DNA of 64,000 nt from Capsaspora owczarzaki ATCC 30864. Its lineage: Eukaryota > Opisthokonta > Filasterea. Made by a program: the position numbers and the translations under genes. The DNA lies in the NCBI RefSeq assembly GCF_000151315.2, contig NW_011887298.1, positions 516,577 to 580,576 of the forward strand, written 5' to 3'. Positions 828 to 46,985 of this stretch are shown here, piece by piece. The notes under the pieces are model-generated. The model made no database searches and was not told where the DNA came from. It was given only the letters and a program-made list of their open reading frames with translations. The stretch's first letter is position 1. Each line of letters starts with the position of its first letter.

Positions 828-1834
828 CCTGCCAGTTCGAACTGCAATAAGAAATGACTGGATCGGGTATGCACATCAGAATCGGTCAGGTGTTGCAGTC
901 ACAACATCAGTGCTTGCAGTGCGAGTGAAAATTGCGCGTTGCGCGGACCAGGGACTTGAGCAACTGCGCTCGAGCTGAAATCCCTACAACCGCCATTCTT
1001 TCCAACCGTGCTTTCGCTGGCTGGATGGCCTCGATTCTGGGTCCTGACAAGCCAAGTGTCATCTGGTGTGAGTACTTTAGTTGAAATCATCATGGATAGG
1101 CGTCGCGGTGGGCTTGGTTTGATGATTTCGTGAATTCGGAAAATGATATCAAAATCGAACAAAACACAAAATTTGTTCTCTAAGCTTTGATTTCTGAATT
1201 GCCTCTTGATCGATCGACGAATTTCATGAGCAGCAAGCCTAGCACCACCAAATACACTTTAAATAGTAGAATAGACCATGTTCTTTACAATGGATACAAA
1301 AATACCTCCTAAAAGTCCTCGACGACTTGTGACTCACACTTGGCAAGTCAGGTTTTCAACCAATCCGCTAATATACGACCATGTCGCCAAGTCAAGACGC
1401 TCCAACGTAAAAAACAAACTGTAATCATATTTGCAACAACACGAATAGGTTAAAGCGCGGTTGCACGCCACTACTGCTGAGCTGCTGCTCGCGCAATTGG
1501 ACACTTTGGTGGTCGAAAAGCCATCGCATTGTTTGCCAAGTCTGCGCCTCTCCTGAGCATCCAGTGAATTGCCAGCAGTTTCCCCAACGAATGTATGCTC
1601 ACCTTATAGATCGAAATCGACAGCGATGGGAAACAGCCGGCGTCCGGCGTCCAAATGCAGAGCGAAGCACCGCGCAATGCAATTTCAGCTCACAGTCATG
1701 CGCTTCCTTTGCATTGCACATACAAGACGGAAAAACAAAAGAACTCAATCCAACTCAAGAATCCAACTCTAAAAGTCCAAGATCAGAATTCAAGCTCAGA
1801 ATCCAACTCAGTCCAGCTTTGGTTTTTGACAGGC
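828..1834. other. Divergent intergenic region between RFC4 and ZFC3H1-like gene
   Basis: About 1 kb without a convincing ORF. It should hold the promoters of RFC4 (leftward) and of the large plus-strand gene. The reading frame of the latter stays open upstream to 1655, but that stretch reads like untranslated leader. A possible 3' splice site (tttttgacag) lies just before the ATG at 1835, so the leader may be spliced. I see no RNA gene or repeat here. Confidence 0.5.
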
Positions 1835-4800
1835 ATGTCGTCGTACAACGAGCGCAGTCGCGAGCTCGACCGCTTCAGCGCCCACCGATATCACAGCGAC
1901 GAGGACCCAGACTCGTTCGACGCATTGATCCGTCGGCGAGAGAGCGGCATCGTCGAGAAGCCGCAGCCAGCAGAAGGCCCGAAGCACGCTTTGAAAGCTC
2001 CTCGCTCGGGCGGTCCTGGAGCCGTGCGCCCGAATCCCAGCTCGAGTCGTGGGAAGCACCATTCGTCAGGCTCCATGTACACGTCATCGTCGTCGTCGTC
2101 GTCGGCGGCGGCGTCCTCGTCGACTGGGTCGTACACTCAGCACAGCAGGCACGATCCACGCTTTCAAGATGGCCGTCGAGCGCCATCATCATCATCAGAC
2201 CACAAGGCATGGCAACCACAAGCGCAACCAGCACAGCAACAGGATCGGTACTACCACCCCTCAGAAGTAGCAGCTCAAGGACAAGGACAAGGACAAGGAC
2301 AAGGTCAAGATCAAGCTCAACCGCACGCAAGGCTTCCATTGATCGAGTACTACGCGCCTGAACCACAAGCCAGCTCCAATCCATACTATCAAGGCATGTC
2401 TGCACAACTGCAAGGGCAGCAGTCGTACCAGAATCTGCCGTACGAGCACGGCTATGCGCAGCCACCGCCTTCCTGGTCTGAGGAGACATTCATCCCGCTC
2501 CCGTTCTTGAGTGTCGCGTCAAGTGCCACCGCACAAGCGCCAGATGAGCAGGCTGCGGCTCTTCTACAGTTTCCAATGTCCCAAGCCCAGCAGCAACCAC
2601 AGCAGGATTGGCAGCGCTATCATGACGGCACCGACCAACTCTCAGCCGCGGCAAATGGAGCGCCACAGCTTTTCAGCGCACCTTATTCTGAGCCTCATCC
2701 GTCGGACGTACAGTCCGAGCTGCAGCGCCTGGACGAATTGGAAGCACAGCTGGCGACACGACGGCAACAACTCCGCCTGCAGGCCTTGCAACAGCCGCTC
2801 GCTTCACAATCACAACACGAACCACACCCAACATTGGTAGCATCACAACAGCTACAACAACAGCATCAGCTACAACAACCACAACAACATCAGCACCAAC
2901 AACATCAGCTCCAACAACAACAGCAACAACACCAACCATTCGCTGCAGTACAACACTTATCACAACCGCAACACAACCAGCAGCTGTTTGCTCTCCAAGA
3001 ACAGACGACGGTGGCACAGCAGCCATATGCATCGCATCATCCACTTCAAAATCAACAACACCAGGGTTTCACATCATTCCGAGAGCCATTCCTCCAATAC
3101 TCTGATCTTCATCCTAGTCAACCGTTTGGACACGCCAGTCGCGAGCCGAGTCGAAGCGCCAGCCCGTTGCCAACCTTTGTGGTGCAGCCAAGCGATCAAA
3201 GCTCTGCGTTGAGTACCGCGGAAGCGCCAAAGCCGATCAAACACGCAAAGCGGCCACTAGCGCACTCGTTTTTTGAGCAGGACCTCTCAGCTGTTGCTGC
3301 TGCGACTCCTGTCCAGGCTTCAACGACCAATCGTCGACCTCTACTCTCGTTCGCGCGCCGCTCTCCGTTCCAGCCAGGCCTTCCCAGCGAGCGCATGGAT
3401 GACGCGATGGAATTGGATTCTGATCGAGACCAGAGCGACGCGTCGTCGCTTTCTGCGGCTGACCGGATGCGCATGCTCAGGCAGCGCGCTTTGGAAGCCA
3501 AGCGAGCGTTGAAGACAACACGCGAGCAGCGCGTTACATCTCCCCACGAGTTGCCGGTCGTCGAGGTCCCGCCCGTCAGCGTCTTGCCGAAAAACCAATC
3601 CTCGTCTGGCGGTCCCACGATCGCCAGCTCTTCTGGACAGGAAACAATCCCCGTTCCCGCCAACCTCGTGGCAGATGCTGCACTGCACCAGTTGACATCG
3701 CGGGAGCCCACCCCAGTTCCAGGAAAGCCGACACAGGACAACCTGGTGTTGGTCTTGTCCGACAGCGACGACGAATCCAGCTCCAGCGATGAGGCAACTG
3801 ACAGCTACCAACGCTTTGCAGTCGATCACGGTCGCAAGCGCATGGAAGTTTTCAAGGCCAACATGGCTCGGGCAGCCCAAAGTTCCCCGCAACCGTTCAG
3901 TGGTAGTGCATTCGTTTCGCAGCCAGCAGTTGCTCCATCTTCGTCTCAACCTCCTTTTGTCGTGTCGAGTACACGCACTCATCAGCCCGGCGCTCTGTCG
4001 CAACAAGGCCCGGCTGGTCTGCTGAAGCGAGTCACGACTGCGAATGTGTTGGCGCGCACAGATTCGGGACTTCAGCAAGCAGCAACTTCCGACCTCGTTA
4101 CCAGCCTTCCTCTTGAAAAGCAAGCCGAGTACATGCGTCTCAAAGAAATTCTTGCAAAACGGCAGACATCCAGCCCTGTAACTCCTTTGGCTTCGGGCAC
4201 TTTGCTCGCCTCCACTGAACCGCCAGCGACAGTGACCGTGTCCGCGTTGCCTCGAGCACCGTCATTGGCACCATCCGTGCCAGCAACGACCAAGAACACT
4301 TCTTCTCAGATCGCAGTGTCTCCAGCAACCAACTTGGCCGTCAATGTGGCACAGCCATCACTACCAGCAGGAGCACCAGCAGTCGCCAGCGGCGCCTCCA
4401 GCAGCGCTCAAAGCACTGCTGATGAAGTAATTTCCACTCTCGCACACCAAGTGAGCCAGTCGGAGACGAAAGTGAAGGTTCTTCGAGCACACATTGCAGA
4501 TGAACGGACACGCTTGAACACCACAGTAGCACAGCGCGACGATGCAGCCGAGGTCTGCATTCGGCAAGAACAACGGATGGCGGAGCTGAAGAGGGAGCTC
4601 CTTTCGCTCGACAAGACGCTGGTTGCTTCTCACCAGACACGTCGAAACCTGGACAAGGCTGTCGCGGAAGCTGAACAAGAACTTGTCAAAAAAGAATCAG
4701 AGTTAACTGCCATCGAGCGCCAAATTGCAGACTCCAGACGACAACTGAAGCTCTTCGAGGCATCACGCCAGCGCATGCTGCACGAGAAGACCAGCACGAT

Positions 4801-7800
4801 CGAGCAGCAAATTCGCACTCTTCGTCGTCACGTTGAAGTTCAGGAACAAAAGCAACTGCAGCAACAGCAACAGCAGCAGCAACAGCAGCAACGTGAGCAA
4901 CTACAGCAGCAGCTGCAACCCGAGCAAGACAGCCTCAAAGACCCACTGAACTCCGAGCCACTTCAAGCAGCTGAAGGTGATGCCGAGGAGGCTGATCAAG
5001 CTGCTGCAGATCAACAAGAACAAGCAGACCAAGCAGACCTTCAACCGACACCCATGTCCATCGAGTCGCGTCAAACACTTGTTGAGAATGGAAGGCCAAT
5101 CGCCTCGTTTCCCTCTTCGACAGTGCAACCACAAATCTCAAACTCCTTGCAAGAAGAACAGCCTGCGTCAGCAGATTTTTGGTTGGTCGTCGCACCACCC
5201 CGCGCGAGCCAGTCGAGTTCATCGAGCGCACTGTCTGCGAATGTCGGTGCAATCCTTGACACGGCCGAGCTACACAAGCGGCAGAGACTCTTGAAAACGT
5301 TCGCTGGCGTTGTGCGCTCGTATGGGTTGCGATTCGATCGTCTGGCGATTTCTGCATCGTTTGCTGCAATCGCCAACGCCGTCCTTCCCTCTACGGTGGA
5401 TGTAGTTTGTGACAACAGTGCGACAGCAGTCGTAGGCAGCAACGTGGACGCCACCAGCGACACGTCTCAAGCCCCTCACGCCAAACCAATGGCACAGGAA
5501 CCTCAGCCTCAAATTCGCAAAACACGGGCAGTCGCCGACACGGCTTTGCTGAAGCGAGGAATGCAACAGCGCTGCATTTTGTTGGATGCATTCAGTGCTG
5601 TCGTGCAGTCGAATCCCAGCGATGCCACTCGCGCGGCCAATCTCCAGCACTCTAATGCAACGAAGCGACCGCGCGTGTACGAGCCGTACGAAAGTCCCTT
5701 GCTCCAATTCCGCTCGTACCGTCTCAGCCCCTTCTACCGAACGCAGGCTCACCGCACCCTTACATCATTGACACACTCGAGTAATCTCGACATGATGCGT
5801 CCACTGTGTCATTTCGATCTGCTGGGGACCTGCAACGATGAAAAGTGCGCCTTCCAGCATCTCCGATCACTGAAGCAAGATGACGAAGCCATTTATCAAA
5901 ATCTCGCTGCGTACGCCATCAAAGAATCGCTTGACAGCGTGGACAAGAATAGGAATGTACTCCTCGCGCGCGGAGTACCGCCTCCAGCATTTTCGACGAG
6001 GACTGATCAAAAGGTTGCACTGCAACTTCGGGCGCACCTGCTTGAACGGCGCGCAGAGTTTGCCAGCAACGGCGTTTCACTCGAGGACGCTTCGTTGATG
6101 CTAATCATGGCGGTGAATCAACACAACAAGCGCCGTGGCTTTGGACCCCCTTCTGTTGTCTCACCCATGACGATCAGGGCTGGTGTTCCCAACGTGAATG
6201 CACCCGACGACGAGCAGTCAGATTCCAAGCACACCAGCGCCAAGACCGGCAACACCTTGACCAGCAGCACCTCGACCAGCAGCACATCGACCGGCAGCAC
6301 CTCTGCAGCTTCAAGCTCTGGGGTGCTTGATCTGGGTCGTGTCGCGGAAGCCATCAGCCCCCGACGGCCTTTGCTCTCCCTGCAGGCTCTTGATGAGCAA
6401 GGTCAAGCAAGCCAGCCTGGCGATCCTTCTGCCATCTCAAGCTCTTGGGCGGGTAGTGAGATTTCGACCAAGTCCACGGTCCGCTACCACCAACCAGGGG
6501 CGGCTCAAAGCCGCCAAGACCTTGAGCAGCAACTCGATGCCGACCCACACAACGAGGATGCGTGGCTAGCTCTGGCCTGCCAATTGATGGAGCCATTCCC
6601 CTCCGCAAATCCTGCAAACATTGCGCCTGACGCTGCTAGGCTGCCCGTCCCGAATTACCAGGCCGCTCTCAGCGCGCTGTCAACCGCACTCGAGTCGCAG
6701 CAGGCCAGTTCGACGCTGTGGACTGTGTATCTGGATTTGTTTCATCGCCAGGCTGTGCTCGCCGGCACTCAGAAGGACGGTGCGCACGTTGACGAAATGC
6801 GGGAAATGTATGCTACGGCAGTCACCCTGGTGCCACAGCCCTTCCCATTGTTTTGGCACTGGCTGGATTTCGAGTCGACGCGCGCCGGCAAATCGAGTGT
6901 TTTGCTCGCCATTGTGAAGCACTGCGTGGAAGCTTTGACCTCGTTCTCGAGCATTGGGAATCGAGCGAGTGCGACGCCTGCGCTTGCTTCCGCTTATCGT
7001 GTGTGGCTGCTTGATTCACTCCTGTCTATCGTGCAGCTGTTTGTTCTTGCGGGCAACCTTGCTCAAGCCTGCCAGGTGCTCGAGGCGTGTTTGGCGCTTG
7101 AGCTCCAAACGAGGGCGGATTGGGTGGATCCAGACTTGTTCATTCGCGCTACCGAGCTTGTCGGAGTTGGGTGCAAGAGTGTTCTTTGGCTTTCTTACCT
7201 CCATTTGCTCGCCCACCACACGCTGCCCGTCAACTTGTTTGACATGCGAGACTGTGGCTTGGGTCGACTGGTAATGGATGCCAGGACAATCACCATTGCC
7301 TGGGATTCGAGCGTGCGCTTGTCGCCTTCTTTGTCGAGTGCGCAAGCCGCCCCGCCCGTGTCTCCAGTGTCCATTGCTCCCGTTTCTGTGACTCAACTGG
7401 CACAGCTTTTTGGGCAAGCACAAGCGCAATTGTTCGCGCAAAACCCCATTCCGCCCTCGAATCGCGATGCGCCGTTTGCGTGCGCTCTCGAGAGCTTCAT
7501 CATCAATCAAGTTCGATTTAACGCAGCGTTTATTAGTGCGCAGTCGGCCATTCAAACCGCCGAGGACTACGTTTCCATGGGTTGGTTGGCCGTCGATTTG
7601 CGTTGCCTGTGCGCTTCCATTCATGCTTCGGACCAGGTTTCCGGCTCGCAGCTGCTCTGTGAAATGGCTGCGTCTACAGTAGTAAACGAAGCACACTCTG
7701 CCATGGCTCTCTGGTATCGCGCCGCACGGTTCCAGCTCGACGGAAACGGCACAGCTGCCTCCCGGCAGATTGCGCTCAACTGTCTGATCCGTGGTGCGCT

Positions 7801-9082
7801 CCAACCGTTTGATCTCAGTGGCATCTTCGATGGCCAGTTTAGTAGCCTTGCCCGCAGTGTAGATGGCATTGATGCACAGCCGTCTCGCGCGTTGATGCTA
7901 CTTGCCTTTGCTCTCCTCTCGCAGCTGGCGCGCCGACCTCTCCCCTACCACTTTGTCGTGCCTCCGCTGCTCGTTCCTGATCTGCGCATGGATGGATTTG
8001 CCATCACTCATCTCTCGCTTGCGCTGTTTCTCCAGCTTTGCGTGGCGTGTCGAAACGTTAGTCCCAATGCCCCACCACTTGCAACATCGAGTGAGGAGGA
8101 AGCAGCGGATGCTTCGCTCGCGGACACAGAGGCGCACCTGTTGCGCGCTTTTGAAAACGAGTACCACCCTTGTCTGCCATTCACCGATGATGCTCGTCAG
8201 CAACTGACCAATGAGCTGCTCGGCGTGTTTGAACGAGGGCTCTTGGCATGTGCTCTTTCAAGGCGCGACACCATGCAGCTGTGGTCTGACTTTGTATCTA
8301 CGATGGCGTCAGAGGTGTCTGCCATTGTGACTGCTGAAGGAATGGCGTCGAATGAAGCCAAGCAGGCGATGCGGCGTCTGACTCTGCTGATTCATCGATG
8401 CACTGCCAGCGCAGAGTCGTCCCGACCAAAGTATTGGCGCAATGGTCAATTTTCCATGTGTCGGACCGAGGACGCTGTGCTGTTTGCAGAGCGGGTTGCT
8501 TCTGGCGCTGAAGACCCCATTACTACCCAGCAGTCACAACTTGATGCTCTAGAGCTCATTCCTGCGTTGCTCCCATCCTCGGCTGCTGGCGACGAGTTCC
8601 TGCATCAATCAAGCAAGCATCTTACCCACAACGTTTTGCTTGCGTTGCGACTCGCTGCCAAAAGCCCGCAACAATTCCGCTTGACAAGATTTTTGCTTGC
8701 CAGCCCTCAATGCGAAGCTCTCTGGAATGCCGCGACGGCCCTGTCTCGAGTAGCCGCGTCACCCGATTCTCCCGCAACCAAGCAGCTCGCGGCGACTCTG
8801 GCTGTGTTGCTGTACAGCGTGCGCGCCCTACCGCTGCACGCAAATCGGTGGAAACATCTTGCTGCGTTCCTGTCCATCCATTCTGCTCAGCTTACTGCGG
8901 ACGGCGTTCTGCATCCCAAGGGCTCTGTTCCATCGGCTCCAGCAGCCAGCCCCACCGAGGCGATTATCCAGGCCAACCAAAGCATCTTGGTCTCGCAACA
9001 CGCGCTTGTGAACATGGCCCAACAATTCGGCGTGGAACTAGCAGGCATCATCGAGGTCGCTCGAGCCATCAACAAAATCTAA
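1835..9082 (+). CDS. ZFC3H1: ZFC3H1/Red1-type zinc-finger protein (nuclear exosome adaptor), 2415 aa, intronless
   Basis: In animals ZFC3H1 bridges MTR4 and the poly(A)-binding protein in the PAXT complex, sending polyadenylated nuclear RNAs to the exosome; fission yeast Red1 is related. The diagnostic zinc finger CHFDLLGTCNDEKCAFQH (C-x7-C-x4-C-x3-H) starts near residue 1325 and has the spacing of the family finger. Before it come a low-complexity N-terminus with poly-Gln near residues 340-370, a long coiled coil near 860-1005 and a second poly-Gln run. After residue 1560 come helical half-TPR-like repeats (for example DADPHNEDAWLALACQL). I chose ATG 1835 (MSSYNERSRELDRF) because upstream in-frame sequence lacks protein character. 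An uninterrupted 7.2-kb frame is unusual here, where neighbours are intron-rich. The identification rests mainly on the finger plus overall architecture. Confidence 0.82.
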   Translation: MSSYNERSRELDRFSAHRYHSDEDPDSFDALIRRRESGIVEKPQPAEGPKHALKAPRSGGPGAVRPNPSSSRGKHHSSGSMYTSSSSSSSAAASSSTGSYTQHSRHDPRFQDGRRAPSSSSDHKAWQPQAQPAQQQDRYYHPSEVAAQGQGQGQGQGQDQAQPHARLPLIEYYAPEPQASSNPYYQGMSAQLQGQQSYQNLPYEHGYAQPPPSWSEETFIPLPFLSVASSATAQAPDEQAAALLQFPMSQAQQQPQQDWQRYHDGTDQLSAAANGAPQLFSAPYSEPHPSDVQSELQRLDELEAQLATRRQQLRLQALQQPLASQSQHEPHPTLVASQQLQQQHQLQQPQQHQHQQHQLQQQQQQHQPFAAVQHLSQPQHNQQLFALQEQTTVAQQPYASHHPLQNQQHQGFTSFREPFLQYSDLHPSQPFGHASREPSRSASPLPTFVVQPSDQSSALSTAEAPKPIKHAKRPLAHSFFEQDLSAVAAATPVQASTTNRRPLLSFARRSPFQPGLPSERMDDAMELDSDRDQSDASSLSAADRMRMLRQRALEAKRALKTTREQRVTSPHELPVVEVPPVSVLPKNQSSSGGPTIASSSGQETIPVPANLVADAALHQLTSREPTPVPGKPTQDNLVLVLSDSDDESSSSDEATDSYQRFAVDHGRKRMEVFKANMARAAQSSPQPFSGSAFVSQPAVAPSSSQPPFVVSSTRTHQPGALSQQGPAGLLKRVTTANVLARTDSGLQQAATSDLVTSLPLEKQAEYMRLKEILAKRQTSSPVTPLASGTLLASTEPPATVTVSALPRAPSLAPSVPATTKNTSSQIAVSPATNLAVNVAQPSLPAGAPAVASGASSSAQSTADEVISTLAHQVSQSETKVKVLRAHIADERTRLNTTVAQRDDAAEVCIRQEQRMAELKRELLSLDKTLVASHQTRRNLDKAVAEAEQELVKKESELTAIERQIADSRRQLKLFEASRQRMLHEKTSTIEQQIRTLRRHVEVQEQKQLQQQQQQQQQQQREQLQQQLQPEQDSLKDPLNSEPLQAAEGDAEEADQAAADQQEQADQADLQPTPMSIESRQTLVENGRPIASFPSSTVQPQISNSLQEEQPASADFWLVVAPPRASQSSSSSALSANVGAILDTAELHKRQRLLKTFAGVVRSYGLRFDRLAISASFAAIANAVLPSTVDVVCDNSATAVVGSNVDATSDTSQAPHAKPMAQEPQPQIRKTRAVADTALLKRGMQQRCILLDAFSAVVQSNPSDATRAANLQHSNATKRPRVYEPYESPLLQFRSYRLSPFYRTQAHRTLTSLTHSSNLDMMRPLCHFDLLGTCNDEKCAFQHLRSLKQDDEAIYQNLAAYAIKESLDSVDKNRNVLLARGVPPPAFSTRTDQKVALQLRAHLLERRAEFASNGVSLEDASLMLIMAVNQHNKRRGFGPPSVVSPMTIRAGVPNVNAPDDEQSDSKHTSAKTGNTLTSSTSTSSTSTGSTSAASSSGVLDLGRVAEAISPRRPLLSLQALDEQGQASQPGDPSAISSSWAGSEISTKSTVRYHQPGAAQSRQDLEQQLDADPHNEDAWLALACQLMEPFPSANPANIAPDAARLPVPNYQAALSALSTALESQQASSTLWTVYLDLFHRQAVLAGTQKDGAHVDEMREMYATAVTLVPQPFPLFWHWLDFESTRAGKSSVLLAIVKHCVEALTSFSSIGNRASATPALASAYRVWLLDSLLSIVQLFVLAGNLAQACQVLEACLALELQTRADWVDPDLFIRATELVGVGCKSVLWLSYLHLLAHHTLPVNLFDMRDCGLGRLVMDARTITIAWDSSVRLSPSLSSAQAAPPVSPVSIAPVSVTQLAQLFGQAQAQLFAQNPIPPSNRDAPFACALESFIINQVRFNAAFISAQSAIQTAEDYVSMGWLAVDLRCLCASIHASDQVSGSQLLCEMAASTVVNEAHSAMALWYRAARFQLDGNGTAASRQIALNCLIRGALQPFDLSGIFDGQFSSLARSVDGIDAQPSRALMLLAFALLSQLARRPLPYHFVVPPLLVPDLRMDGFAITHLSLALFLQLCVACRNVSPNAPPLATSSEEEAADASLADTEAHLLRAFENEYHPCLPFTDDARQQLTNELLGVFERGLLACALSRRDTMQLWSDFVSTMASEVSAIVTAEGMASNEAKQAMRRLTLLIHRCTASAESSRPKYWRNGQFSMCRTEDAVLFAERVASGAEDPITTQQSQLDALELIPALLPSSAAGDEFLHQSSKHLTHNVLLALRLAAKSPQQFRLTRFLLASPQCEALWNAATALSRVAASPDSPATKQLAATLAVLLYSVRALPLHANRWKHLAAFLSIHSAQLTADGVLHPKGSVPSAPAASPTEAIIQANQSILVSQHALVNMAQQFGVELAGIIEVARAINKI

Positions 9083-41765: not shown

Positions 41766-41826
41766 TGTTACGACCTTACCCGGAACTTAACCTAGAATCA
41801 CAACTGAAGCGGGCCAATTCGTAACA
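41766..41826 (+). mobile_element. Short repeat copy with TG...CA ends (left of the SAMD9-like gene)
   Basis: A 61-bp unit with ends TGTTACGA and TCGTAACA, which are inverted repeats of each other. About 45 bp from its left end recur with one mismatch, in reverse orientation, at 46598-46730. It is shorter than that copy. I see no clean target-site duplication around it. The TG...CA ends could mean a solo-LTR fossil or a miniature inverted-repeat element; the family is not settled. Confidence 0.6.
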
Positions 41827-42301
41827 TATAAATTACTCGCAACATCAACCCATTACTCGTATCTTCGTGGAAAGATCTCTGATCATAACAATTCCACTTC
41901 TTCAAGGACCTCAGATTGATAGCTTGCTCCTGTTTGGCGGTACAAATTGGATTTTCTAAACCGAATCTATTCTCTCTCTCTCTCTTTTTTTTTTTTTTTT
42001 TTTTTTTGTCTCACTTTTTTTTCTCTTTCTTTCTTCTTCTTCCGCATTCCACCCCTTTCCCTTCCTCACCCACCCTCTTCGCTTGGCGTTTTTCTTGTGT
42101 TCTCGTCTGCCGCGCAAGCTCTATCGTGCTCCAAGGCCTGCCCTTGCACAACTTGACTGTGTTCTCCCTTTTTTTTTTTTTTTTTTTTTTGTCTTTCTCG
42201 CACACACATTTCCTCTCGTTCTGACGCTTCTTTCTCGCGGTCTCCTTTGACGTCCCACAAGCGCTGCCTTTGCATAATCAACCTGACTGCGCGGTTTCTC
42301 A

Positions 42302-45300
42302 ATGACAATGGCTGAAGTCAGTAAACTGTCAACAAGTGACCGAGAAAAAGTCAAACTGACCCATGACCACCTCAAAAGAATCGCGGCCATGTTCAACGGC
42401 CGCGCTCGAGGGAGCATTCGTGTCGAATCACAATCTACATCCGCAGAGTTTGTCCGCAATTTGCAACAGGTACTCACCAAGCTTTGGCCTCGACCAGAGC
42501 TTTTCGGCGCTGAAGACATTGTCAACTACTCTGGAACTCAGCAACCTGTGCTCTTTTGGAAAGTTGCCGATCCCAAGGGCAACTTTAACTGCTATGACCT
42601 TGAAGCCGAGCCGCTTCCAACAGGAAATGTCATGCTGGTGCAAAGTACATCAAGCTCCGACTTTGGGTGCGTGAAGCGTCGCACCACCGCCGACGCTTTT
42701 TTCGTCCAACCTGAAAAGTACATTCCAAGCTTGGCCGCAGCCAGCTGGCACGACATTTCGCATCGCCCATTGGATCTGCAAGTAGAAAAATCGCCCGTTG
42801 CTGTACCAGCATCTCAAGTTCTTCCGCCGGAGTCGTCGGTGCTTGAGTACAAACAGCAAGCGTCCAGAAAACAAGACCCGATGCCTTACGTGTACACGGC
42901 TGACGATCTGGTCTCTCATTTGCGAGATGTTGGTCAACTGCTGGTTCAGCAGCGCGAGGCGCGCTTGATCATCGGAGTCGCCGATTCTCCGAGCCATGTC
43001 ATTGGTGTTGAAATTTCTTGGAGATTTGCCGAGTCTTTGAACTCTGCTGTCACTACTTGGGCTTCCGAGCTGATCCCCAGTATTTCTGAAACACCCATCA
43101 AGATCTCGATTCAGCCTGTTGTAAACGCCCTTCCGGGTTTGACTCCTGAGACACTGGCAACCTTTGTTGTGATTCAGATCGATGGCAGTCAGGCCCAGCA
43201 GATACTTGCGGCGACGCACGGCCGCGGCCAACGAGTGAAACTTGAAGACGAGCTACCGTCAGATTCCAAAGACGAAGTCAAAGCGCACAAGGTGCTCGTT
43301 GTATTGCAGCAAGATGCCTTGCCCCTTCTGCCGCCGTATTTGCGAGCTGCGTGCGAGCATGTGCAAAGTCTTTCGAATATCTTCGATCCGGCTTTTGACA
43401 CCCCGATGGCAGCCCTTCTGTCTGAATGTCACGCTGTCATCTCAGGGTCACCCGACCCGTGGTCAGCTTTACTCGACCTTCTGGCACCTCGTGTGATCGT
43501 TTCTGTTCAGTTCTCCCGTGGCCAGCCTCTTCTCTTCATTCATCGCCTTGGCAACCCTTTGATGAGTGTTGTCGCGGCTGATGGCAGGCAATATGAGGCA
43601 AACGCCTTGGGCGCTTGGCTTCGGCTCCAAACGCCAAAAGTGTCTCGTGCCTTGCTGAGAGGTGGGATGGCTGTGCGCATCCGACTGCGCTCCTCCGCAG
43701 CAATCCAACAAGGACAGCCTGATTTGGCAGAGGAGGCCATCAAACATATGGTCGGCCACTGTCACTTTGATCTGCAGCTGGAAGTCGATCTGCAACGCCA
43801 TGCATCGCGAAACCGCACAGCCATGGCCTTGCAACCCATACGGCGCCCGTTTGCTCCGCGAATCGTCGTCATTGATGCTGACTTTGCAGTTTCGCATGGG
43901 AGGGAAATTGAGAGGCTATTGCAGACGATTCCAATGCATCGCGTCGCTACGCTGCCAGATGATCCGCTTGGAGCAGCCACAGTGCTACCGCCCAGCGCAT
44001 ACTCTGTTGTTGTCGTTGCACGTCTCGATGACGCGCTAGTCAAGGGGCCGTTGTTTGAGCTTTTAAACAGTCACATGGACATTTGCGATGTCTATCTCGC
44101 CTCTCCACCACCGCGCCACCAAGTTCTGCTGCCACCATCTGTCTCTCGAGACGAGTTTGCTTCTCAAGTCGTACGTAACCCTCCGTGTGAAGTGCAGCTC
44201 GAGGTTGTTCCGCCTGAGCTTTCGTCGTCTCCCGATTTTGATAGCAACATTTTGCTGCAAGCGCAAGACTGGGTTCGGAATGGACATCCGATTCCATGGG
44301 GATTGCTCTCCCGAGACTTTTATGCGATGCGCTCGAATCAAACCTCTTTGGTAACAACCATTTTATCACGCCTTCAAACTGGCCATGGTCTGTCTACACT
44401 GACCGTGGCCCAGACGCTTGCGGGCGCAGGCAGCACCACACTGCTACGAGCTGTCGCCTTTAAACTCGCCAAGACGCACGTCGTGCTCTGGGCATCGAGC
44501 CCTGACACACTCGTCACTCCGGCCGCGTTGGAGTATGTGCGTGCGCTGGGGCGAGAGCATCAGCTAGTGATTGTCTGCGACTTGCCACGCAACGCTCCAG
44601 CTTCCTCATTGCGTCCGTGCTCCGTACTCTGGGATCAAGCTGACCTTCAGCCTGCGGTACTGCTGCAACTTGAACGCACCGAGTTTTGGAACAGCTCAAT
44701 TCCGTCGCACGCGGTTGCAAGCGTGCATCTGGTGCTGGACCAGCAAGAAGCGGCTCGCGTGGTGCGCTGCTTCCAATGTTTGTTTCCAGCCAGGTCTGAC
44801 GCTCTACAAGGTCTGCTTCAGCCGCTTGCGGGCGATTGCGAGCACGACCTGGTTTTGTACCTTGCGACGGCCATGTACGATGCTCCTGCTCGAGGTATTT
44901 TGCGATTCCTCAATCCGCTCGACAGTACAGAGCGCGATGAAGACATGTTTGCGAAGCATATGGCCTTCCTCACTTTGGCAGATGTTCCAGCATCCTGGGA
45001 AGCATGTCGAAGCGCCATCCCTTCACACGATCCGACATGGCATTTGCTACGTCTGGTCCCAGAGGAAAGTGAAAACGGTGGTCGTGTCCGTGTTGCAGTT
45101 TGGCATCCCACCTTGGTCGATGCAGTGCTCGGCCTCGGTCCCTTCTACCGCGACCCTCGGTCCGAGAGCCAGGTTCTTGTCGATGCATGCCTGGCCTCCT
45201 GCCAAACTTCCTGGATTGCGAGCGCCTTGGCGTGGTCTGCGTTACTGAAGCGTCCGAAATCAGCTCCGTTTTCGCCTTTCGTTCAGAGATTGGTGAGCCT

Positions 45301-45703
45301 GCAAAAACGTGAGGTGCTCAAAGACGATTTGCTCGGACGTGTGCTCGTGGCTTCTACCAATTTCGTGGATCGCGAGACGAAGCTGCACTTTGACATCATG
45401 CACTCTCGTTATCTGGAGGCTATCGGTAGCCCAGCGTGTCTCCCTGAAGCCAAGTCCATCATGAACAACGCTCAGTCACACCTGCTTTTCATTGCAAGTC
45501 GCAACTATGGTGATCGGTTGCTCAACCAGCATAATCGCTTGTCCCTGACTCAGCGGGAAGAACTGCACCGTGTCATGATCATGCTCTTCAACGAGGAGCC
45601 GGAGAGATTCACCCGCGATGATATCCGACGTATCAGAGACGCAGTTCCCGTGGCTAATCAGCAGTCATGGGCGTTACGTTTGCTGACCAGTGCGCCGGCA
45701 TGA
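42302..45703 (+). CDS. SAMD9-like protein: AlbA_2 (Schlafen-type) domain plus STAND-like P-loop NTPase, 1133 aa, intronless
   Basis: SAMD9 and SAMD9L are animal interferon-linked antiviral and translation-restricting proteins whose relatives are also found in bacteria. I see an AlbA_2/Schlafen-like region near residues 175-300 (SSVLEYKQQ, then ARLIIGVADSPSHVIGVEIS), a divergent middle, and a P-loop region near 670-740: WVRNGHPIPWGLLSRDFYA, then TLAGAGSTTLLRAVAFKLA followed by a beta strand (THVVLWASSP). The GxGxTTL loop (residues 708-714) lacks the canonical Walker Lys, as I recall for SAMD9. Helical, possibly TPR-like sequence fills the C-terminus. No SAM domain is visible. Start 42302 (an in-frame ATG also at 42308). 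A 3.4-kb single exon contrasts with intron-rich neighbours. It lies between inverted short-repeat copies. The call is a fold-level inference. Confidence 0.66.
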   Translation: MTMAEVSKLSTSDREKVKLTHDHLKRIAAMFNGRARGSIRVESQSTSAEFVRNLQQVLTKLWPRPELFGAEDIVNYSGTQQPVLFWKVADPKGNFNCYDLEAEPLPTGNVMLVQSTSSSDFGCVKRRTTADAFFVQPEKYIPSLAAASWHDISHRPLDLQVEKSPVAVPASQVLPPESSVLEYKQQASRKQDPMPYVYTADDLVSHLRDVGQLLVQQREARLIIGVADSPSHVIGVEISWRFAESLNSAVTTWASELIPSISETPIKISIQPVVNALPGLTPETLATFVVIQIDGSQAQQILAATHGRGQRVKLEDELPSDSKDEVKAHKVLVVLQQDALPLLPPYLRAACEHVQSLSNIFDPAFDTPMAALLSECHAVISGSPDPWSALLDLLAPRVIVSVQFSRGQPLLFIHRLGNPLMSVVAADGRQYEANALGAWLRLQTPKVSRALLRGGMAVRIRLRSSAAIQQGQPDLAEEAIKHMVGHCHFDLQLEVDLQRHASRNRTAMALQPIRRPFAPRIVVIDADFAVSHGREIERLLQTIPMHRVATLPDDPLGAATVLPPSAYSVVVVARLDDALVKGPLFELLNSHMDICDVYLASPPPRHQVLLPPSVSRDEFASQVVRNPPCEVQLEVVPPELSSSPDFDSNILLQAQDWVRNGHPIPWGLLSRDFYAMRSNQTSLVTTILSRLQTGHGLSTLTVAQTLAGAGSTTLLRAVAFKLAKTHVVLWASSPDTLVTPAALEYVRALGREHQLVIVCDLPRNAPASSLRPCSVLWDQADLQPAVLLQLERTEFWNSSIPSHAVASVHLVLDQQEAARVVRCFQCLFPARSDALQGLLQPLAGDCEHDLVLYLATAMYDAPARGILRFLNPLDSTERDEDMFAKHMAFLTLADVPASWEACRSAIPSHDPTWHLLRLVPEESENGGRVRVAVWHPTLVDAVLGLGPFYRDPRSESQVLVDACLASCQTSWIASALAWSALLKRPKSAPFSPFVQRLVSLQKREVLKDDLLGRVLVASTNFVDRETKLHFDIMHSRYLEAIGSPACLPEAKSIMNNAQSHLLFIASRNYGDRLLNQHNRLSLTQREELHRVMIMLFNEEPERFTRDDIRRIRDAVPVANQQSWALRLLTSAPA

Positions 45704-45727
45704 GCAAGGCTTCAACTTTCTTGCGCT

Positions 45728-46589
<862 letters not shown>

Positions 46590-46597
46590 ATTGGTTT

Positions 46598-46730
46598 TGT
46601 TACGAACTGGGCTCATCCCTAATCGGTCTTCCCCTCATTCTTCACTATATTCTTAGTAAACGATACTTCCGCATACATTTCGTACGCTTCAGTAGTGATT
46701 CTAGGTTAAGTTCCGGGTAAGGTCGTAACA
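46598..46730 (-). mobile_element. Short 133-bp repeat copy flanked by perfect 8-bp direct repeats
   Basis: Ends TGTTACGA and TCGTAACA form 8-bp terminal inverted repeats. The unit is bounded by identical ATTGGTTT octamers at 46590-46597 and 46731-46738, a textbook target-site duplication. About 45 bp at its right end match the copy at 41766 in opposite orientation with one mismatch. It has no coding capacity. An 8-bp duplication suggests a hAT- or P-like miniature DNA element; the TG...CA ends would also suit a solo LTR. It looks whole and, given its perfect duplication, fairly young. Confidence 0.7.
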
Positions 46731-46738
46731 ATTGGTTT

Positions 46739-46911: not shown

Positions 46912-46913
46912 TG

Positions 46914-46985
46914 CTCGACTGCCGGGGATCGAACCCGGATTTGCACGGTGACAGCGTACGGTACTAACCATTATACGACAGTCGA
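46914..46985 (-). tRNA. tRNA-Asp (anticodon GUC)
   Basis: Read on the minus strand, the acceptor stem TCGACTG pairs perfectly with CAGTCGA. The D arm has the 4-bp stem GTAT/GTAC and loop AATGGTTA. The anticodon stem is GTACG/CGTGC with loop CTGTCAC, giving anticodon GTC. The T arm is CCGGG-TTCGATC-CCCGG. The discriminator is G, the identity base expected for tRNA-Asp. There is no intron. The B box GGTTCGATCC is intact. Confidence 0.97.

Follow-up and report, generated by a model that had tools for sequence, protein, structure and literature searches.

A SAMD9-like gene family joining an AlbA_2 domain to a lysine-less STAND NTPase in Capsaspora owczarzaki

A 64,000-nucleotide stretch (C7:516577-580576, hereafter the window) from the genome of the unicellular eukaryote Capsaspora owczarzaki ATCC 30864, whose assembly comprises 29 contigs and 27.46 Mb, carries a gene at 42302..45703 of the forward strand whose single uninterrupted open reading frame encodes 1133 residues and which has three paralogues elsewhere in the genome. 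Its product places an AlbA_2 domain of the Schlafen/tRNase-SA type ahead of a STAND nucleoside triphosphatase (NTPase) that lacks the Walker A lysine, and both domains resemble their counterparts in SAMD9, a human antiviral factor that blocks translation by cleaving tRNA, the NTPase over an extended alignment. We lean towards reading the protein as a STAND-type switch built like the core of SAMD9, in which an AlbA_2 ribonuclease would be held under a lysine-less STAND module, perhaps for antiviral purposes. A preliminary description of the window, made from its letters alone, had reported the uninterrupted gene, which we find at the same place, and had proposed a SAMD9 domain order. The collinear arrangement of AlbA_2 and lysine-less STAND NTPase bears this out, but the SIR2-like and OB regions of SAMD9 were not found. 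As the architecture is reduced, with the SIR2-like, OB and SAM parts missing, we call the protein SAMD9-like and do not file it as a member of the SAMD9 family.

A protein search of the organism's own genome returned three diverged paralogues on contigs C13 and C6. The C13 paralogue (C13:281249-283900) is 30% identical to the window protein (E 1.7e-60), the first C6 paralogue is matched at C6:819993-820598 and 818727-819029 (E 5.5e-9 and 6.5e-5, respectively), both within a single frame of 1290 codons, and the second at C6:738981-739217 (E 0.0015). Over the NTPase region, the window and C13 proteins share 33.1% identity and the two C6 proteins 35.6%, with 21.2-24.3% between the two pairs. Each of the three paralogues occupies a long open frame, interrupted in two cases by a single frame change. 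Beside the C13 paralogue (positions 89-2331 of its locus, L027), P450, flavodoxin and FAD-binding parts follow one another in successive frames, a run that we take to resemble a self-sufficient P450 of the CYP102 type.

The NTPase core of the window protein (residues ~655-820; 44264..44761, on the forward strand like all parts of the gene described below) is both PF25199-like and SAMD9-like. Its P-loop, GAGSTTL (residues 708-714; 44423..44443), and the stretch WGLLSRDFYA, which begins at residue 666, lie where the preliminary description had put them. The corresponding P-loops of the paralogues are GCGSTTV, ACGMTTV and GIGLTTV, such that the Walker A lysine is absent from all four proteins while TT is kept. 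The lysine position is occupied by S, S, M and L, compared to G in SAMD9, and the literal GGT/S signature (GGTT in 94 of the 120 SAMD9 matches listed out of 247) is absent. The P-loop is preceded by WVRNGHPIPW (residues 657-666; 44270..44299), which resembles FYRGGKVSWW of SAMD9 and belongs to a motif common to the four proteins, [D/K/Q]W[VIM]R[NRS]G....W, one residue longer in the C13 paralogue and of the general form [W/F]xRxGx(4-5)W; its strict form occurs in 51 of the 120 SAMD9 matches listed. A Walker B-like LVIVCD (residues 755-760; 44564..44581) ends in D760, invariant in the family, and a WHP motif (residues 934-936; 45101..45109) aligns with the HP of SAMD9.

The similarity to SAMD9 was quantified by comparing the four-row NTPase alignment with a profile of 60 SAMD9 proteins (92 of the 120 listed exceed 1150 residues; the first 60 were aligned, with X as A, and the named ones are vertebrate). 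The match scored 55.0 (probability 84.4, P 7.1e-6), and a template cut to the SAMD9 NTPase gave a probability of 92.1 and a P of 6.3e-7 over 245 columns, the alignment extending to the HP motif (VWHPTL with RIIHPLIA). None of 60 column or 60 block shuffles reached 55.0 (best 29.6 and 41.6, respectively), and the reversed alignment scored 26.6. Five subsets of 19 SAMD9 proteins yielded probabilities of 84.5-91.1 over 235-241 columns, compared to 38.6 over 28 columns, covering the P-loop only, for a NACHT profile of 19 (22 actinobacterial loci from 2 of 80 and then 13 of 299 genomes; 21 tried, 19 kept). The assignment of a P-loop NTPase of the SAMD9 kind in the preliminary description thus agrees with these scores, and the profile-profile comparison that it had proposed, with AlbA_2, SAMD9 and STAND families, gave significant matches to AlbA_2 and to the SAMD9 NTPase. 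The sole significant Pfam family in the four proteins is PF25199 (nSTAND_NTPase5; E 4.2e-9 to 8.8e-7). Relative to its curated cut-off of 34 bits, the four domain pieces score 36.8, 33.7, 30.9 and 29.3 and the whole window protein 31, and in the genome search two of the four lie above it (38.2 and 35.6).

The AlbA_2 domain spans residues ~177-300 (42830..43201), and here too the preliminary description, which had pointed to ARLIIGVADSPSHVIGVEIS as a Schlafen/AlbA-like stretch, is supported. An N-terminal alignment of the four proteins matched a profile of 17 bacterial PF04326 (SLFN_AlbA_2) domains in hhalign with a probability of 91.6, a P of 8.1e-7 and a score of 43.2, in a register that pairs EYK and GVAD. 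These 17 domains come from 22 loci, of which L055 and L058 were left out for stops, L069 as partial, and L063 and L072 as short. The score lay above all 300 shuffles, 150 by column and 150 by block (best 15.2 and 26.8), and above that of the reversed alignment (10.5). As a positive control, SAMD9's own AlbA domain scored 44.3 against the same 17 domains (probability 93.6, P 2.1e-7), and its solved structure, 7ksp, was retrieved from the PDB by the same bacterial profile (E 1.7e-5). When the family was matched directly to SAMD9 AlbA, with 44 of the 60 SAMD9 proteins in one of the comparisons, P values ranged from 3.0e-4 to 7.5e-4 and the register was correct (EYK on EFK, GVAD on GVKD); a score of 39.4 exceeded the best of 60 column (22.7) and 60 block (32.8) shuffles.

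The domain contains an ExxxxEYK motif (residues 177-184, with E177, E182 and K184; 42830..42853) and GVAD (residues 225-228; 42974..42985). In the alignment with SAMD9, E182, D209, D228 and K184 fall on E196, E218, D241 and K198, which two reports name as catalytic or basic (PMC13245274, PMC12331169). E182 and K184 are kept in all three rows that have letters at those columns; the C13 row starts beyond the ExxxxExK motif, which is accordingly represented by three rows. The D209 column reads D, H, D, E (acidic in three of four) and the D228 column D, D, E, D (acidic in all four). The E-x4-E spacing equals that of the bacterial AlbA_2 domains. Elsewhere in the genome, the PF04326 search produced a single match, weak and below the cut-off, in a 99-residue frame at C9:968384-968611 (L050; E 0.0013).

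Set beside known systems, the family shares with SAMD9 and SAMD9L an AlbA_2 domain before a STAND NTPase, the loss of the Walker A lysine with TT retained, two motifs ([W/F]xRxGx4W ahead of the P-loop and HP beyond the NTPase) and, within AlbA_2, one lysine and several of the acidic positions. In contrast to these proteins, it has S, S, M or L and not G at the lysine position, the E-x4-E spacing, a short C-terminus and an N-terminal region of its own, with no SAM or DEATH-type domain and no SIR2-like or OB region detected. This N-terminal region (residues 1-170; 42302..42811) is partly conserved in the paralogues (PLPxGxV, RR) and has no known domain. Schlafen (SLFN) RNases belong to the same AlbA_2 fold family and have the E-x4-E-x-K motif and a later Asp. 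They differ in showing two AlbA_2 stretches in 11 of 14 PDB Schlafen rows, compared to the one found in the window protein, where no search for a diverged second lobe was made; we know of no Schlafen with a STAND NTPase. Avs5 and other SIR2-STAND antiphage proteins combine an N-terminal effector, a STAND NTPase and repeats, and Avs5 is structurally similar to SAMD9 according to its authors, but its effector is SIR2 and its Walker A lysine functional, as stated in that study (PMC12931631). As for TPR repeats in the present family, one of the four proteins gave a weak TPR_6 match (E 0.17). NCBIfam and PADLOC returned nothing significant for the four proteins.

Other results weigh against the SAMD9-like reading. 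The middle region (residues 301-650; 43202..44251) is kept among the paralogues, but its profile compared to SAMD9 gave a P of 0.11 and no Pfam match; a SIR2-like domain was not detected there, although a very diverged one could escape. The C-terminal profile matched SAMD9 over 18 columns at the HP motif only (P 0.0036), with no OB fold and no Pfam match in the tail of the window protein. The tails after the NTPase are short, 177-293 residues across the four proteins and about 200 in the window protein. The N-terminal 170 residues had no match in the profile comparison with SAMD9, and Pfam scans found no SAM domain. In the AlbA_2 region, the window protein has no basic counterpart of SAMD9 K214 and R221, and E177 precedes E182 by 5 residues, whereas E184 of SAMD9 precedes E196 by 12, such that E177 falls outside the E184 column. 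The probability of the direct SAMD9 AlbA match was just 25-40%. HMMER searches of three N-terminal pieces against Pfam did not detect AlbA_2 and gave weak unrelated matches for two of the pieces (E 0.0065 and 0.0085), the PF04326 search of the genome matched no paralogue, and the four proteins taken singly reached probabilities of 50.0, 18.7, 59.5 and 1.2 against AlbA_2 (scores 28.7, 24.5, 29.4 and 14.9). Two paralogues change frame, the C13 gene within the ExxxxExK region (L027 6368-6485) and the second C6 gene at L026 3519-3540, which may reflect decay, assembly error or an intron.

The NTPase contributes further points on this side. PDB sequence searches with the full and NTPase profiles gave no match to SAMD9, and structure models from single sequences were of low confidence (predicted local distance difference test, pLDDT, 48.0 and 39.6). 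Human SAMD9 alone matched weakly (P 0.0087 and 0.016). Of the 120 SAMD9 sequences listed, 40 were tried singly and scored 18.4-31.5, compared to 33.6 for an unrelated P-loop frame (L033) and 30.2 for a bacterial PF25199 protein (L073); as these scores overlap those of other P-loop proteins, single SAMD9 sequences were rejected as templates and the NTPase signal rests on the family profile. PF25199 was likewise rejected as a marker of SAMD9, considering its lysine-bearing bacterial member and its weak scores in 14 of 14 control genomes.

These observations bear on two other explanations of the protein. It may be a protist member of the nSTAND5 class (PF25199) that was fused to AlbA_2 and lost its lysine independently of SAMD9, the likeness then being one of kind and not of close descent. 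PF25199, the only Pfam NTPase family to match all four proteins, fits them far better than it fits SAMD9, where it was found in one of four proteins tried (P0012, as the best NTPase family, E 0.0069) and in none of the other three. Moreover, one bacterial PF25199 member (L073, 906 of 1319 codons read) keeps an ordinary lysine P-loop, GQGKTTL, the four proteins carry S, S, M and L where SAMD9 has G, and the SIR2-like and OB regions were not found. We nevertheless regard such an origin as less likely than the SAMD9-like reading, given that the family shares with SAMD9 its domain order, its lysine loss and a 245-column alignment that takes in the HP motif, although the profiles of SAMD9 and nSTAND5 differ in depth and do not allow an even comparison of the two. 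It is less probable still that AlbA_2 binds nucleic acid without cutting it, the protein then using its STAND switch to sense nucleic acids or to regulate genes. AlbA_2 in SAMD9 was initially read as a binding domain (PMC5445408), K214 and R221 lack basic counterparts, and the frame of the C13 paralogue changes inside the ExxxxExK region, but the window protein retains K184 and the acidic positions of the domain.

The locus itself was described as island-like and possibly acquired, bracketed by opposite-orientation repeats. Two 46-bp inverted copies, 98% complementary, are indeed present at 41766-41811 and 46685-46730, 4.9 kb apart, but they are not the ends of one element, as each belongs to a copy with its own termini. 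Both copies lie outside the gene and belong to a dispersed miniature inverted-repeat transposable element (MITE) of ~133 bp with the ends TGTTACGA...TCGTAACA. The left copy (41766..41826, +) is short, 61 bp, and carries both ends, which were read by eye; automatic end-finding found no ends at L001 and recovered pieces of 51 bp at L002, L009 and L016. The right copy (46598..46730, -) is 133 bp long and has, in addition to its own ends, an 8-bp target duplication, ATTGGTTT, at 46590-46597 and 46731-46738. Of 19 places examined, only this right copy shows a duplication, and the length of 8 bp is therefore known from a single copy. A genome search with the right copy gave 48 candidates, of which 40 were scored as matches, a count that takes in the copy itself and some partial matches. 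The two repeats are independent insertions of the dispersed MITE, which explains the bracket.

A composite mobile element, or a recently acquired island that carries the gene between terminal inverted repeats, would account for the paired 46-bp copies, but (i) both copies carry a pair of termini, and the right one also a target duplication of its own, (ii) 39 further matches of the right copy were scored across the genome, and (iii) GC content is ordinary relative to the window, as is codon usage; we consider this origin most improbable. The correlation of codon usage with other long frames of the window is 0.73 for the gene and 0.55, 0.74 and 0.85 for the three paralogues, measured against a crude reference, since some of these long frames lie opposite one another on the two strands and need not be real genes. 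The gene therefore falls within the scatter of its paralogues, which lie on other contigs, and the island idea does not hold. Nor is the lack of introns a mark of an island here, because the paralogues also occupy long open frames.

Other features surround the gene. The 124-bp GT array of the preliminary description is (GT)62 at 45731..45854 (+), just past the stop codon and upstream of an AATAAA at 46010-46015. Near the right MITE copy lies a tRNA-Asp (GTC) gene (46913-46985, -). By eye, positions 41850-41890, beside the left MITE, resemble the flanks of the MITE at L008 without the insert. This may point to an older segmental duplication that includes an empty site. Pairs of MITE matches ~1 kb apart and with equal scores occur at C3:1613104-1614220 and C4:1320656-1321773 and appear to be a single segment shared by the two contigs. 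Neighbouring genes include La, importin alpha, UCH and Det1, a set that indicates a eukaryotic genome without pointing to a lineage; the importin alpha scored equally well against chains from animals and yeast in the PDB. One open frame of ~2490 codons at 1610-9079 (+) contains a zf-C3H1 zinc finger.

Searches beyond this genome returned no relative. From 5.8 billion proteins, 7992 and 7990 candidates were scored, none of them a relative at E ≤ 10. None was found in 396 actinobacterial genomes either, though an empty answer of that search shows nothing, and of 35 stretches in viral contigs that fit the pattern none was confirmed. Four loci in the genome contigs with a SAMD9-style P-loop pattern were taken as chance and rejected, their frames of 92, 199, 392 and 62 residues being too short. 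Homologues of SAMD9 and SAMD9L are described in animals and bacteria, the bacterial ones by Mekhedov et al. 2017 (PMC5445408), and as absent from plants, arthropods and nematodes (PMC5445408, PMC13245274). Among the titles and abstract openings listed, a scope outside which most subscription papers and all bioRxiv preprints fall, we found no report of SAMD9 in a protist.

Returning to the SAMD9-like switch, we propose the following model, in which nuclease activity, tRNA as its substrate, the switching and a defence role are all inferred. The N-terminal AlbA_2 domain would be the effector, probably a metal-dependent ribonuclease, with tRNA as its likeliest substrate; SAMD9 is an anticodon nuclease that cuts tRNA-Phe according to two reports (PMC13245274, PMC12331169). 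The loss of the Walker A lysine, described for SAMD9 (PMC5445408), suggests nucleotide binding without ordinary hydrolysis, and the NTPase of the window family probably behaves likewise. The HP motif and the short tail would follow this regulatory module. At rest, the STAND part would keep the nuclease in an inactive state. Upon a trigger, possibly of viral origin, it would open or oligomerise, freeing AlbA_2 to cleave RNA and thereby bringing translation to a stop.

A further, tentative idea, which we hold to be possible but doubtful, is that the four genes constitute a minimal SAMD9-type immunity module of a unicellular eukaryote, whose core is either older than the animal family or a parallel development, at a stage preceding the addition or retention of the SAM, SIR2-like and OB parts. 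A SAMD9-like core in a single-celled eukaryote hints that defence of this type extends beyond animals and bacteria. The reduced architecture of the protist protein would reveal which parts form a minimal switch and would offer a microbial setting for asking what a lysine-less STAND module does with nucleotide. Furthermore, the protist family would add an outgroup for the question of how an antiviral tRNase reached animals.

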